Below, in pieces: positions 21,395 through 29,114 of a stretch of DNA of 64,000 nucleotides. Under the pieces are notes generated by a model that worked only from the letters and a program-made list of their open reading frames with translations, did not search any database and was not told the origin of the DNA. This DNA comes from Noviherbaspirillum sp. Root189 (GTDB lineage Bacteria; Pseudomonadota; Gammaproteobacteria; Burkholderiales; Burkholderiaceae_D), in contig NZ_LMHZ01000023.1 in NCBI RefSeq assembly GCF_001428545.1, positions 126,467-190,466 of the forward strand, in the 5' to 3' direction. Made by a program: the position numbers and the translations under genes. Position 1 is the stretch's first letter; the number at the start of each line of letters is the position of its first letter.

Positions 21395-22933
21395 TCACAA
21401 CTGCGGATTGACGCGCTCCGCCTTGGATTGCAGCTTGTTCAATGCCGACAGGTAAGCTTTTGCCGAGGCCACAACGATGTCCGGATCGGCGCCGACGCCG
21501 TTGACGATACGCCCTGACTTCGACAGACGCATTGTCACTTCGCCTTGCGACTCGGTACCGGTGGTAATGGCATTCACCGAGAACAGCAGCAACTCGGCAC
21601 CGCTCCTGGCCTCCGATTCGATCGCATGCACAGTCGCATCGACCGGACCATTTCCCTGGCCGGCGCAGGTCAGTTCCTTACCGTCCATGGTAAATACCAC
21701 TTTGGCTGTCGGCCGCTCGCCGGTTTCAGAATGCTGTGCCAGCGAGACAAAGCGGTAGAATTCTTTATCATGTGAGTGCTGCTCATCGGCCACAACGGCA
21801 ATGATGTCCTCATCAAAGATTTCGGCCTTGCGATCAGCAAGTTCCTTGAAGCGTGCGAAGGCCGCATTCACCTCGGTTTCTGACTCCAGTTCGATCCCGA
21901 GCTCCTCAAGGCGTTGCTTGAAAGCATTGCGGCCGGAGAGCTTGCCGAGGACGATTTTATTGGCGGTCCAGCCCACGTCTTCCGCACGCATGATTTCATA
22001 GGTGTCGCGTGCCTTGAGCACACCGTCCTGGTGAATACCAGACGCATGGGCAAAGGCATTTGCGCCCACCACCGCCTTATTCGGCTGAACGGCGAATCCG
22101 GTGATCTGCGACACCAGCTTGGATGCCGGGACGATTTGCGCGGCGTCGATCGACAGGTCGAGATTAAAATGGTCCTTGCGGGTACGCACCGCCATGACGA
22201 TTTCTTCGAGTGCGGTATTGCCAGCACGTTCGCCCAAGCCGTTGATGGTGCACTCGACCTGACGCGCGCCGCCGATCATTACGCCGGCCAGCGAATTTGC
22301 CACGGCCATGCCCAGATCGTTATGGCAATGGACCGACCAGATTGCCTTGTCCGAATTGGGGATGCGTTCGCGCAGGGTCTTGATCATATTGCCGTACAGC
22401 TCGGGGACACCGTAACCGACAGTATCCGCAAAGTTGATGGTACTGGCACCTTCGGCGATAACGGCTTCAATCACGCGGCACAGGAAATCCATATCCGAAC
22501 GGCTGCCGTCTTCCGGGCTGAACTCCACATCGTCGGTGAACTGGCGCGCAAAGCGAACCGCCTGTTTAGCCTGCTCAAACACCTGGTCGGGCGTCATCCG
22601 CAGCTTCTTTTCCATATGCAGCGGCGAGGTCGCAATGAAGGTATGGATGCGCTTGCGCTCGGCACCGGCAAGGGCTTCCGCCGCGCGGGAAATATCGCGG
22701 TCGTTCGCACGGGAGAGCGAGCAGACTGTGGATTCCTTGATAATGCCGGCGATGGCCTTGATCGATTCGAAATCGCCAGGTGACGCCGCTGCGAATCCGG
22801 CTTCAATGACGTCGACACGCAGTCGTTCCAGCTGCTTCGCAATCCGGATTTTTTCATCCTTGGTCATCGAGGCGCCAGGCGACTGTTCGCCGTCTCGCAA
22901 GGTGGTATCGAAAATAATCAGTTTGTCGGCCAT
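21395..22933 (-). CDS. leuA: 2-isopropylmalate synthase
   Basis: First committed step of leucine synthesis: 2-oxoisovalerate plus acetyl-CoA to 2-isopropylmalate. 512 residues. Catalytic TIM barrel with [16 protein letters not shown] at residues 8-23 and the metal-binding HCHNDLG motif near residue 203; a C-terminal LeuA allosteric domain (about 385-500) for leucine feedback. Ribosome-binding site CAGGAG is close before the ATG. A 33-codon leucine-rich reading frame (23057-23158) and pairing segments upstream suggest leader-peptide control. Confidence 0.97.
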
Positions 22934-23056
22934 GCTGCACTCCTGTCAGGAAAATTCGGAAATCGGATCGTCGTCAATGGGTTTTCGCCTGCCCTTGCCG
23001 TGAATGGCAGGAGCCAGAAACTACGCGAATTGTGGGGGTATGGGATTTAGCGCGCG

Positions 23057-23158
23057 TTAACGCACTAGTAGCAGCAGGCCTAGCAGGAGGCCGCCGAAAA
23101 AAGCGGATGCGGAAATGTGGATTTCGCGGAACATGCGAAAAACTATAAGCGGATTCAT
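23057..23158 (-). CDS. Putative leucine-rich leader peptide of leuA
   Basis: Unreported-looking 33-codon frame, ATG at 23158 and stop TAA at 23057-23059, about 120 bases upstream of leuA. Its last eleven residues are LLLGLLLLVR preceded by L: eight leucines using CTC, CTG and CTA codons, the hallmark of a leu attenuator peptide. The stop lies in palindrome GCGTTAACGC. A segment GCCTGC inside the Leu codons can pair with GCAGGC near 22985, which can alternatively pair with CCTGCC just before it: two mutually exclusive structures. Against it: no clear ribosome-binding site and no classic U-run terminator before leuA. A short membrane peptide is the alternative. Confidence 0.5.
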   Translation of the reverse strand: MNPLIVFRMFREIHISASAFFGGLLLGLLLLVR

Positions 23159-23221
23159 GGAAAAGTGCAATGCTTTGATGTATCCATGGCCCAAGGGTAT
23201 TTCGTGGCATCGTTGAAAACG

Positions 23222-23246
23222 AAGGCGCCGGCATGGCCGGCGCCTT
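23222..23246 (-). terminator. Terminator after pssA
   Basis: Near-perfect hairpin AAGGCGCCGGC/GCCGGCGCCTT with a 3-base loop, followed on the minus strand by CGTTTTC. It lies 20 bases after the pssA stop and separates pssA from the leuA leader. Confidence 0.8.
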
Positions 23247-23266
23247 GCATCTTGACTATCTATCCA

Positions 23267-24160
23267 TCAATCCTTGTGGTCCATTACGTCATGCTCACTG
23301 GTATCCACAATGCTGACCGGCTTCCCCTTGAACAGCCGCCAGAAATAAATCACATAGCCGGAAAGCCCGTACAGTACGAACATGCCGAACAGGACCTTCG
23401 GCGGATCACTGGATATCAGTACAAATATCAGGACGATGACAAAGATGGCAATAAACGGTACCGACTTGCGAAAATTGATTTCTTTGAAACTATAGAACGG
23501 GACGTTAGTCACCATCGTCAGTCCGGCATACAAGGTAATCGTCCAGGCGAACCAGGTCAGGTCAGTGCCGACGAAGCGCAGGTCATCCATCAGCCAGATA
23601 AACCCAGTCACCAACGCTGCGGCGGCCGGGCTAGGCAAACCCTGGAAATACCGTTTATCAACAACAGTAATATTGGTATTGAAGCGTGCAAGACGCAGTG
23701 CCGCCCCCGCACAATACACAAATGCAGCCAGCCAGCCGAGTTTACCCATGCCGCGCAGCGACCATTCATACACGATCAGCGCCGGTGCCGCGCCGAACGA
23801 CAACATATCCGACAGACTGTCATATTGCGCGCCGAATTCGCTCTGGGTGTTCGTAAGCCGGGCTACGCGTCCGTCCACGCTATCAAGAAGCATGGCAGCA
23901 AAGATGGCGACCGAAGCCTGATCGAACTTCAGGTTCATGGCCATGACAATGGCAAAGAAGCCGCAGAACAGATTGGCTGTCGTGAATGCATTGGGTAACA
24001 GGTAGATACCGCGACGACGCGGCGCCTGTGTGACGGCAAGATTGTCATCGTCGACGCCGTCACGCTGCGCAGCATGAATGGAAGCCCGCCTGCCAAAACG
24101 CGACGCCTTGGGGAATAACCCGGCGCTGCTTTTCGCCTTGCGACGATTGAAGGTTGCCAT
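23267..24160 (-). CDS. pssA: CDP-diacylglycerol-serine O-phosphatidyltransferase
   Basis: Makes phosphatidylserine, the precursor of phosphatidylethanolamine, at the inner membrane. 297 residues with about seven hydrophobic helices. The CDP-alcohol phosphatidyltransferase signature D-G-x2-A-R-x8-G-x3-D-x3-D is intact (DGRVARL ... GAQYDSLSD, about residues 95-117). The first 45 residues are basic and hydrophilic. Gene order pssA-leuA is common in betaproteobacteria; psd, often next to it, is missing here and a SIMPL-domain gene stands in its place. Confidence 0.95.
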   Translation of the reverse strand: MATFNRRKAKSSAGLFPKASRFGRRASIHAAQRDGVDDDNLAVTQAPRRRGIYLLPNAFTTANLFCGFFAIVMAMNLKFDQASVAIFAAMLLDSVDGRVARLTNTQSEFGAQYDSLSDMLSFGAAPALIVYEWSLRGMGKLGWLAAFVYCAGAALRLARFNTNITVVDKRYFQGLPSPAAAALVTGFIWLMDDLRFVGTDLTWFAWTITLYAGLTMVTNVPFYSFKEINFRKSVPFIAIFVIVLIFVLISSDPPKVLFGMFVLYGLSGYVIYFWRLFKGKPVSIVDTSEHDVMDHKD

Positions 24161-28594: not shown

Positions 28595-29114
28595 TGCCTG
28601 GTTCCTTTCAAGGTCCATTGGAGATTGATCGGATGCTCTTTCCTTGCGAAGTCGCATGGGATGACAGGGCCGGGGCTTCCCTTCTTTGTGCGGTCACGCC
28701 ACCTCGTTGCGCATCCGTAGATGCGATTCAAAATGACGCTTAACGCGACTCGTTCAGCCGGGGTATCTGAAATACCGTTACGAATTTCTCACGCTTGTGG
28801 CGTGGGTTAGAGCAAACAGCTTTTTAGGTAAAGCGCGTCTTGCCGTAAAGCGGCATCATGCGCCGCGGGACAAGACAATTCCTTCAAGGTGAGAAGGGAG
28901 TGATACGTTAATAGCTCACACCCTTTTGGTCAAGCTAAATTCCGGCAAACCCGTTAGAAATCAAGCGGTTTCCGCAAAAACTATGCACAATACGGGTCTT
29001 TTTTGCTAGCATGCGCACTGTTTTACGGGTAGCCCGCCTGTAAAGCAACCCACCTATTTCAACGCGCCCTCCGCGGCCGCACAGCTTCCAGACATATGGA
29101 GTCCGCCACATCGA
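28595..29114. other. Long divergent intergenic region, ilvB / ECF sigma gene
   Basis: 520 bases without a convincing gene. On the minus strand, hairpins CGCATC-TACG-GATGCG (near 28715) and TGCCG-CTTTA-CGGCA (near 28850) lie in the ilvB leader. Short frames such as MMPLYGKTRFT occur, but none has a run of Ile/Val/Leu codons, so no ilv leader peptide is claimed. Confidence 0.6.
28905..28933 (-). promoter_or_regulatory. Candidate ilvBHC promoter
   Basis: Minus-strand TTGACC (28928-28933) and TAACGT (28905-28910) with a 17-base spacer. The -35 is good (5 of 6), the -10 weak (3 of 6). It would give a leader of about 300 bases. Confidence 0.4.

Follow-up and report, generated by a model that had tools for sequence, protein, structure and literature searches.

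The leuA locus and its leader frame

The window analysed here is a stretch of 64,000 nucleotides from Noviherbaspirillum sp. Root189 (contig NZ_LMHZ01000023.1), and the question it raises lies on its minus strand between pssA and leuA, where a small reading frame ends in a run of leucine codons: is this frame the sensor of a leucine attenuator, and by what means would it act on leuA? A short frame rich in codons for the product of a pathway, standing before a biosynthetic gene of that pathway, is what one looks for in an attenuator, and that arrangement is present here. The features of the locus, all on the minus strand and in the order of transcription, are as follows.

23216..23246, pssA terminator, which sets the leader promoter apart from transcription arriving from upstream
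23165..23170, TTGCAC, putative -35 element of the leader promoter by sequence, with a 17-nt spacer
23142..23147, TATAGT, putative -10 element by sequence, 7 nt ahead of the leader ATG
23057..23134, leader peptide ORF MFREIHISASAFFGGLLLGLLLLVR, 25 codons and TAA
23073..23095, P0, possible hairpin within the ORF (GGCGGCCT with GGCCTGCT), imperfect in the window and weakly evidenced
23066..23089, control region of eight codons, seven of them for Leu and three of these CTA
23048..23067, P1 hairpin at the ORF end (UAGUGCGU / GCGCGCUA), its loop holding the stop codon
23027..23050, G-free C-rich stretch of 24 nt with CCACAATTC, candidate Rho loading site
22991..23014, P2, distal hairpin (GCUCCUGCC / GGCAAGGGC), interrupted by an internal mismatch and not followed by a U-run
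22987..22990, AGGC 3' of P2, which with the GC of P2 makes up a GCAGGC able to pair with the Leu run
22940..22944, AGGAG, leuA Shine-Dalgarno sequence (assigned by sequence)
21395..22933, leuA, 2-isopropylmalate synthase, the presumed regulated gene (NCBIfam matches)

The leuA product scores 908.9 bits against NCBIfam NF002087 (cutoff 729) and 692.6 bits against TIGR00973 (cutoff 598.7). In folding, the pssA terminator is a hairpin (23246-23222) of -23.5 kcal/mol, flanks included, followed by UUCGUUUU. The leader comes after it, and 123 nt lie between its TAA (23059-23057) and the leuA ATG at 22933, so that the placement given in the original prediction, which counted 120, is borne out by the sequence. 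The same genome codes for a second LeuA-like protein of 32% identity (G000:C12:54144-55688). Elsewhere in the window, upstream of ilvB, there is a long stretch with apparent inverted repeats (28658-28990), in which no Leu leader was found by the calling rule applied to leuA.

Start codon and promoter

The frame had originally been drawn with 33 codons (23158-23057) and with eight Leu within eleven codons near its end. It is indeed open over that length and closes at the same TAA, but its start was probably set too far upstream, and the Leu run is in fact seven codons in eight (CTC CTG CTA GGC CTG CTG CTA CTA, 23089-23066), the sole further Leu of the longer frame being its fourth codon. The ATG at 23158 is an unlikely start because it is located in the promoter spacer, between the -35 (23170-23165) and -10 (23147-23142) elements, and an ATG at this place occurs in only two of the 40 leaders of the Oxalobacteraceae type, those of the window and of L084. 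As judged from sequence, the start is most likely ATG 23134, for a peptide of 25 codons.

The promoter boxes recur in relatives. Among 125 accepted leaders the -10 box stands 6-7 nt before the ATG in 113, 8 nt in seven and 9 nt in five, and a Shine-Dalgarno-like tetramer precedes none of them, versus 119 of the 125 leuA genes, although the calling rule, which permits spacings of 5-9 nt, fixes that range in advance and is biased against Shine-Dalgarno-like letters. TTG at the 17-nt spacing was seen in 81 of 127 leader calls, and 34 had none at 15-19 nt; boxes resembling TTGCAC-17-TATAGT are conserved ahead of the leader, which would have a promoter of its own. Since TATAGT stands 7 nt before ATG 23134, transcription probably starts on the start codon or right beside it, and with this spacing and the missing Shine-Dalgarno sequence in mind we regard a leaderless transcript as highly probable. 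There is a precedent for such an arrangement in B. cenocepacia, for which passages of PMC4603805 describe a TA-rich motif immediately upstream of leaderless genes. The leader would add a conserved leaderless peptide to such cases, one whose sole visible start signal is its promoter.

Spread of the leader among leuA-upstream regions

A run of this density is rarely produced by chance: Markov resamples of the interval held at least seven Leu within an open 10-codon stretch in 0.16% of cases. Three short ORFs of the whole window lie 6-8 nt behind a -10 box with at least five of six matches, and at least four Leu in ten codons are found only in the leader. Over L001-L080 (1.165 Mb of strand-bases), none of the six non-leader ORFs behind such a box has at least five Leu, and 15 leader calls do.

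Regions upstream of leuA were drawn from 80 named genome records, from a family sample of 195 genomes (30 loci and 80 stretches), from three genomes of the genus and from 150 genomes sampled from the order (28 new loci and 20 stretches). The 241 regions so gathered comprised 230 distinct ones, which gave 127 leader calls, of which 125 were accepted, L139 and L143 being dropped for their resemblance in sequence and distance to pssA C-termini. The conserved Leu runs that the original prediction had proposed to look for in relatives were found: a Leu-rich leader was accepted in 125 of the 230 distinct regions across Burkholderiales. Between relatives the frame and the Leu run are kept while the length and the non-Leu residues vary widely; the stop codon lies 78-190 nt before leuA, and GLLLRPAR, GLLLRLAR or a similar sequence closes the peptide in many other families of the order. 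The leaders were sorted into an Oxalobacteraceae type (40, including that of the window), a terminator type (35), a Burkholderia type (nine), a Cupriavidus type (two) and a rest (39), the first of these having been hand-picked from leader-positive loci, with L112, L011, L157 and L163-L165 assigned to the rest. On a LeuA tree of 136 rows these types cluster, with 23 changes between them.

What counts against an attenuator is that 103 of the 230 regions, including Collimonas, Massilia, Duganella and Janthinobacterium records, gave no leader call by the -10 rule. Several of these have short pssA-leuA gaps, and some may contain leaders that the rule missed, the C-rich motif described below being found in four of the 103. 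In L001, L002 and L005 (Collimonas) and most of L093-L103, where pssA and leuA are about 740-765 nt apart, no Leu leader was found. Several of these gaps contain a frame reading MLKSPDLIYPGQMLRIPP, which we take to resemble a piece of LysM.

Choice of Leu codons

In the leader of the window CTA makes up three of the seven Leu codons versus one of 221 in seven genes of the window (binomial 3.2e-6). Its share among the Leu codons of the leaders is 34% in the Oxalobacteraceae type, 48% in the terminator type, 45% in the Burkholderia type and 14% in the rest, versus 0-1% in the leuA genes of these four groups (available from 25, 35, 9 and 17 loci), and every leader of the first three types has at least one (40/40, 35/35 and 9/9), as do 17 of the 39 in the rest. 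The control for composition was the share of A-ending codons among the other four-fold codons, which is 22%, 9%, 6% and 14% in the same order. The terminator and Burkholderia types show a clear preference for the rare codon, and so does the leader of the window. For the Oxalobacteraceae type taken together, the 22% of A-ending codons, and a CTA share that drops to 24% without the last five codons, mean that the excess may be partly or wholly, and perhaps mostly, compositional, and in the rest families, where CTA and the other A-ending codons both stand at 14%, no preference was seen. That CTA matters to a leucine sensor is known from the leu attenuator of S. typhimurium, in which, according to passages of PMC1183508, the control codon is CUA and its change to CUG reduces sensitivity.

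Might the Leu run merely encode a hydrophobic peptide with a function of its own, or be left over from one, with no sensing of leucine? The C-terminal half of the peptide is hydrophobic, and leader peptides can act in trans, as passages of PMC7298713 describe for peTrpL of S. meliloti. Such a role is very unlikely indeed, given the wide variation in length and non-Leu residues, the enrichment of rare CTA, the place of the leader before 2-isopropylmalate synthase genes, one of them non-orthologous, and the lack of any match in Pfam for the five leader peptides searched or in NCBIfam for four.

A probable leucine attenuator of leuA

The conserved frame, the promoter boxes, the rare CTA and the position before leuA across Burkholderiales give strong support to the claim with which this work began, that a Leu-codon leader controls leuA, and from these sequences we consider it very probable that the leader is a leucine-responsive, ribosome-mediated leader-peptide attenuator. 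Transcription, to judge from the promoter, would start at or beside ATG 23134, and the leaderless mRNA would direct the synthesis of a 25-residue peptide with seven Leu codons near its end, part of them the rare CTA. With charged tRNA-Leu scarce, the ribosome would stall on the Leu run and leuA would be expressed; with leucine plentiful, it would finish and depart, and the transcript would end before leuA. How the transcript would end is a question to which the leader types suggest two different answers.

Leaders with an intrinsic terminator

The terminator type (the 'coma' set) consists of the 35 leaders with a GCCCG..CGGGC hairpin of -14 kcal/mol or better, so that its terminator is the means of its selection rather than a result and only its other differences count; those that carry names are mostly from genera of Comamonadaceae. 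Full equilibrium folding, run on 12 of the 35, was uninformative, with the terminator at 0.97-1.00 throughout, and for that reason all 35 were folded as an RNA ending just before the 3' arm of the terminator, with a ribosome footprint placed at each codon. The median probability of the antiterminator was 0.87 with the first Leu codon in the A site, 0.94 with the second and 0.67 with the last, versus 0.48 once the ribosome had reached the stop codon and 0.42 if none was placed. In 29 of the 35 leaders the mean over Leu codons exceeded the value at the stop; that it did not in the other six counts against the attenuator reading. In these models the terminator type comes close to textbook attenuation, so the leader in the window has relatives in which terminator and antiterminator fold much as in classical attenuation, a further point for control of leuA by the leader.

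No such terminator was found before leuA in the window. The original prediction had noted the absence of a U-run before leuA, and a terminator scan of 22500-23600 likewise found no U-run terminator, though the scan also missed that of pssA. A threshold of -8 kcal/mol or better was passed by four of the 40 Oxalobacteraceae-type leaders, two of the nine Burkholderia-type, seven of the 39 others and both of the Cupriavidus type. In the Cupriavidus leaders, L066 and L071, the U-run terminator is a strong one of another sequence (ACGCCCCGGC..GCCGGGGCGT), and pssA and leuA lie about 1 kb apart.

Hairpins of the window's type

In the window P1 is predicted at -10.6 kcal/mol (z -3.0 against shuffles) and P2 at -12.6 kcal/mol (z -1.6). 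Over the 40 Oxalobacteraceae-type leaders the in-ORF region of P0 has a mean folding z of -1.46, and the means for the P1 region and the distal hairpin are -1.58 and -1.94; the corresponding pairs are -1.62 and -2.49 in the nine Burkholderia-type leaders, -1.10 and -1.99 in the 39 others, and 0.00 and -3.36 in the 35 of the terminator type. When arms were swapped between leaders, own P1 arms paired at -10.6 kcal/mol and swapped ones at -8.8, and for P1 as for P2 none of 5000 permutations did better. In an alignment of 41 leaders 92.6% of P2 cells are paired versus 80.2% in shuffles, with 40 double-change cells versus 13.5, and versions of P2 slid out of register pair in 30-44% of cells. Both swap results hold in 24 thinned rows. 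By these comparisons P1 and P2 coevolve, and covarying stems, another of the checks proposed at the outset, exist in relatives for these two hairpins.

They were not seen for the switch that had been proposed, in which bases of the Leu run pair with GCAGGC (22992-22987) in competition with CCTGCC (23011-23006). Both elements are in the sequence as described, and the pairing with the Leu run is kept in 87.7% of cells, but its covariation is about that of shuffles and own and swapped arms hardly differ (-13.3 and -13.5 kcal/mol, p 0.78), hence without a sign of coevolution. The covarying register of P2 is another one, GCUC.UGCC with GGCA.GGGC. In whole-leader folds the switch pairing has a median probability of 0.00-0.02, and it was rejected. 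A weak trend in its favour appears if the RNA is made to end 9 nt past P2, where AGGC pairs with the ORF at a median of 0.38 for a ribosome on the first Leu codon and 0.22 for one at the stop (higher in 17 of 40 leaders, lower in eight).

Could P2 itself be an intrinsic terminator that does without a U-run, P1 and P2 then being the 1:2 and 3:4 hairpins of a classical attenuator? P2 covaries and occupies the place of the Comamonadaceae terminator, and in one of the 40 leaders, L166, a hairpin that contains P2 is followed by an A/T-rich tail. Of the four Oxalobacteraceae-type leaders that pass the terminator threshold, three do so with a hairpin other than P2, and the -12.6 kcal/mol of P2 in the window, at z -1.6, argues the same way. 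A partner whose pairing depends on the ribosome is also wanting: no ribosome-dependent antiterminator appeared in the folds of the window's type, the P2 medians staying at 0.65-0.76 across ribosome positions, and a classical 2:3 antiterminator was rejected, as the 5' arm of P2 pairs upstream about equally at every position (medians 0.44-0.48). We think P2 distinctly unlikely to terminate in this way.

Much the same can be said of translational control, in which a stalled ribosome would free or hide the leuA Shine-Dalgarno sequence through pairings among it, P2 and the Leu run, and which we likewise hold to be improbable. In the window CTCCTG (23012-23007) matches CAGGAG as its complement, and over all 40 leaders the pairing of the 5' arm of P2 with its own Shine-Dalgarno sequence slightly beats swapped pairings (p 0.009), but the advantage fades in the 24 thinned rows (p 0.11). 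In 20 of 40 leaders the Shine-Dalgarno sequence pairs with the leader to an extent that depends, by more than 0.1, on whether the ribosome is on Leu codons or at the stop (13 higher, seven lower); its accessibility, on the other hand, has medians of 0.16-0.21 at any ribosome position and changes by more than 0.1 in only four of 40, and P2 lies about 50 nt ahead of it across a stretch that varies. Sequestration of the leuA Shine-Dalgarno sequence thus finds little support in the swap test and the folds. That P2 and the Shine-Dalgarno sequence barely respond to the ribosome in the folds of the window's type also counts against the attenuator reading.

The structure that does respond, and more than any other in the folds of Oxalobacteraceae-type leaders, is P1. 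Its median of expected pairs is about six while the ribosome occupies the first or second Leu codon or is absent, and 0 once it sits on the last Leu codon or the stop; in 35 of the 40 leaders the first Leu codon gives a higher value than the stop.

The C-rich stretch and a possible Rho output

Behind P1 the window's type has C-rich, G-poor RNA, predicted to be unpaired, downstream of which no U-run follows. The longest G-free run after the stop codon has a median of 21.5 nt in the Oxalobacteraceae type versus 13 nt in the terminator type (p 4e-13) and 12 nt in shuffles, the motif C[AC]CAATT occurs in 32 of 40 leaders of the former and in none of the 35 of the latter, and in the folds the stretch is unpaired in every ribosome state (medians 0.76-0.78). 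The two types differ as well in the distance from the last Leu codon to the stop, with medians of three codons (2-3 in 35 of 40) versus eight (p 2e-13). With stall and stop 2-3 codons apart, the presence of a ribosome would be distinguishable and its position hardly so, and hence the proposal that in the window's type Rho loads onto the G-free stretch just past the stop codon, and that this site would be masked as long as a ribosome is parked on the final Leu codons, which stand 2-3 codons ahead of the stop. On these sequence features a Rho-dependent output gated by the parked ribosome is quite possible, a little short of an even case. The original prediction had hinted, from the missing U-run, at translational control or at Rho; Rho fits best, by inference, and the translational switch gains little, with Shine-Dalgarno access at 0.16-0.21 throughout.

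Several points weigh against Rho. A ribosome at the stop codon would also reach the C-rich stretch, and the stretch might have another role. In the Burkholderia type the G-free run has a median of only 6 nt and yet just two of the nine leaders pass the terminator threshold, so that neither output is explained there. One such other role would be that of a protein-binding site, or of a pause site for RNA polymerase that couples it to the ribosome, in the C-rich CCACAATTCGnGTAGT (23034-23021 in the window, minus strand), which is conserved between P1 and P2 in relatives and for which none of the pairings tested accounts. In the 44 cases aligned on the motif, CAATTCG followed by GTAGT-like bases is conserved, as such a site would be; the sequence presumably does not fit the pause consensus, which counts against a pause site. 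We judge this alternative unlikely.

If Rho does provide the output, the window would hold an amino-acid attenuator that reads the residence time of the ribosome and not its position. A wider reading, which we offer with more doubt than confidence, is that a single leaderless leucine attenuator serves much of Betaproteobacteria and works through either of two interchangeable outputs: an intrinsic terminator, where the position of the stall would be sensed and the last Leu codon stands about eight codons before the stop, or a Rho site, where a parked ribosome would be sensed and the last Leu codon stands about 2-5 codons before it. One sensor with two outputs could, if confirmed, show how attenuators shift between intrinsic and Rho-dependent termination in either direction.

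RNA model and database searches

An RNA model built from 40 sequences, from the ORF end through P2, matches its own genome once (E 1.4e-21, the next match having E 1) and, among 399 genomes of the order, has matches in 22, a count kept low by strict filters and by the origin of the model in one family. Twenty loci were fetched, four of them among the sequences of the model itself; 19 precede leuA, and a Leu-rich leader frame is present in 19. In L268 the match leads into a non-orthologous 2-isopropylmalate synthase, above the cutoff of TIGR00970 and 27.6% identical to the LeuA of the window; the same kind of leader with a C-rich CCCACAATTTG stretch stands ahead of it (L268:1447-1625), and upstream on the opposite strand there is a frame that we take to be argB-like. 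Among 185 genomes of the class there was one further match (G695, E 7e-4), outside the order, which had no leuA match or Leu leader nearby and was judged to be due to chance.

The leader sequences scanned had no match in Rfam 15, Pfam or NCBIfam. The Rfam family Leu_leader, presumably that of enteric leuL, had no match at gathering score in ten relatives, and searches of the window with E limits of 5 and 10, and of L055 with a limit of 10, gave none either. Two of the ten loci scanned carry Rfam ilvH RNA (RF02993), which in these stands some 2.6-2.9 kb ahead of leuA (L055:24-91 and L050:346-413).

In the literature, the titles and first parts of abstracts among the matches listed describe no betaproteobacterial leu leader; the Vitreschak 2004 survey, which is said to treat gamma- and alphaproteobacteria, may include relatives of the terminator type. 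The passages drawn on from PMC2965389, PMC4603805, PMC5688073 and PMC6123439 do not name one either. As far as these sources go, the leader is of a known kind, the leucine attenuator, in a variant without a description in the literature searched, and it puts forward, for a large group of bacteria, a way of controlling leucine synthesis that can be tested.

Comparison with known systems

The closest likeness is to enteric leuL, whose leader peptide in E. coli has 28 residues with four Leu in passages of PMC6123439: both are short peptides with a Leu run before leuA and with CUA control codons. The leader described here differs in its probable leaderless start, its sequence and its hairpins, and in the window's type also in having no U-run terminator. 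For the leaderless start there are likenesses farther afield. The leaderless polycysteine short ORFs of mycobacteria, which attenuate operon expression (Canestrari et al. 2020, as reported in passages of PMC9094748 and PMC13236596), share with it a run of a single amino acid, although the amino acid is cysteine, the phylum is another, and the likeness drawn is one of description. The mRNA of the S. meliloti trpL leader peptide, in passages of PMC7298713, starts at its ATG, for tryptophan rather than leucine, and is likened here without regard to the structure of the attenuator.

For the proposed output, passages of PMC12121999 provide a precedent, in which ribosomes stalled on uORFs change the sites where Rho loads. 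The masking of a Rho site as proposed for the window would be driven by tRNA-Leu and otherwise be much like that of the tna operon. In tnaC-rut of E. coli a ribosome held at the end of the leader ORF masks the adjoining Rho site, its arrest being caused by tryptophan and the TnaC peptide and not by a shortage of charged tRNA. In the leuA leader, where Rho itself is a matter of inference, the signal that parks the ribosome would be precisely such a shortage.
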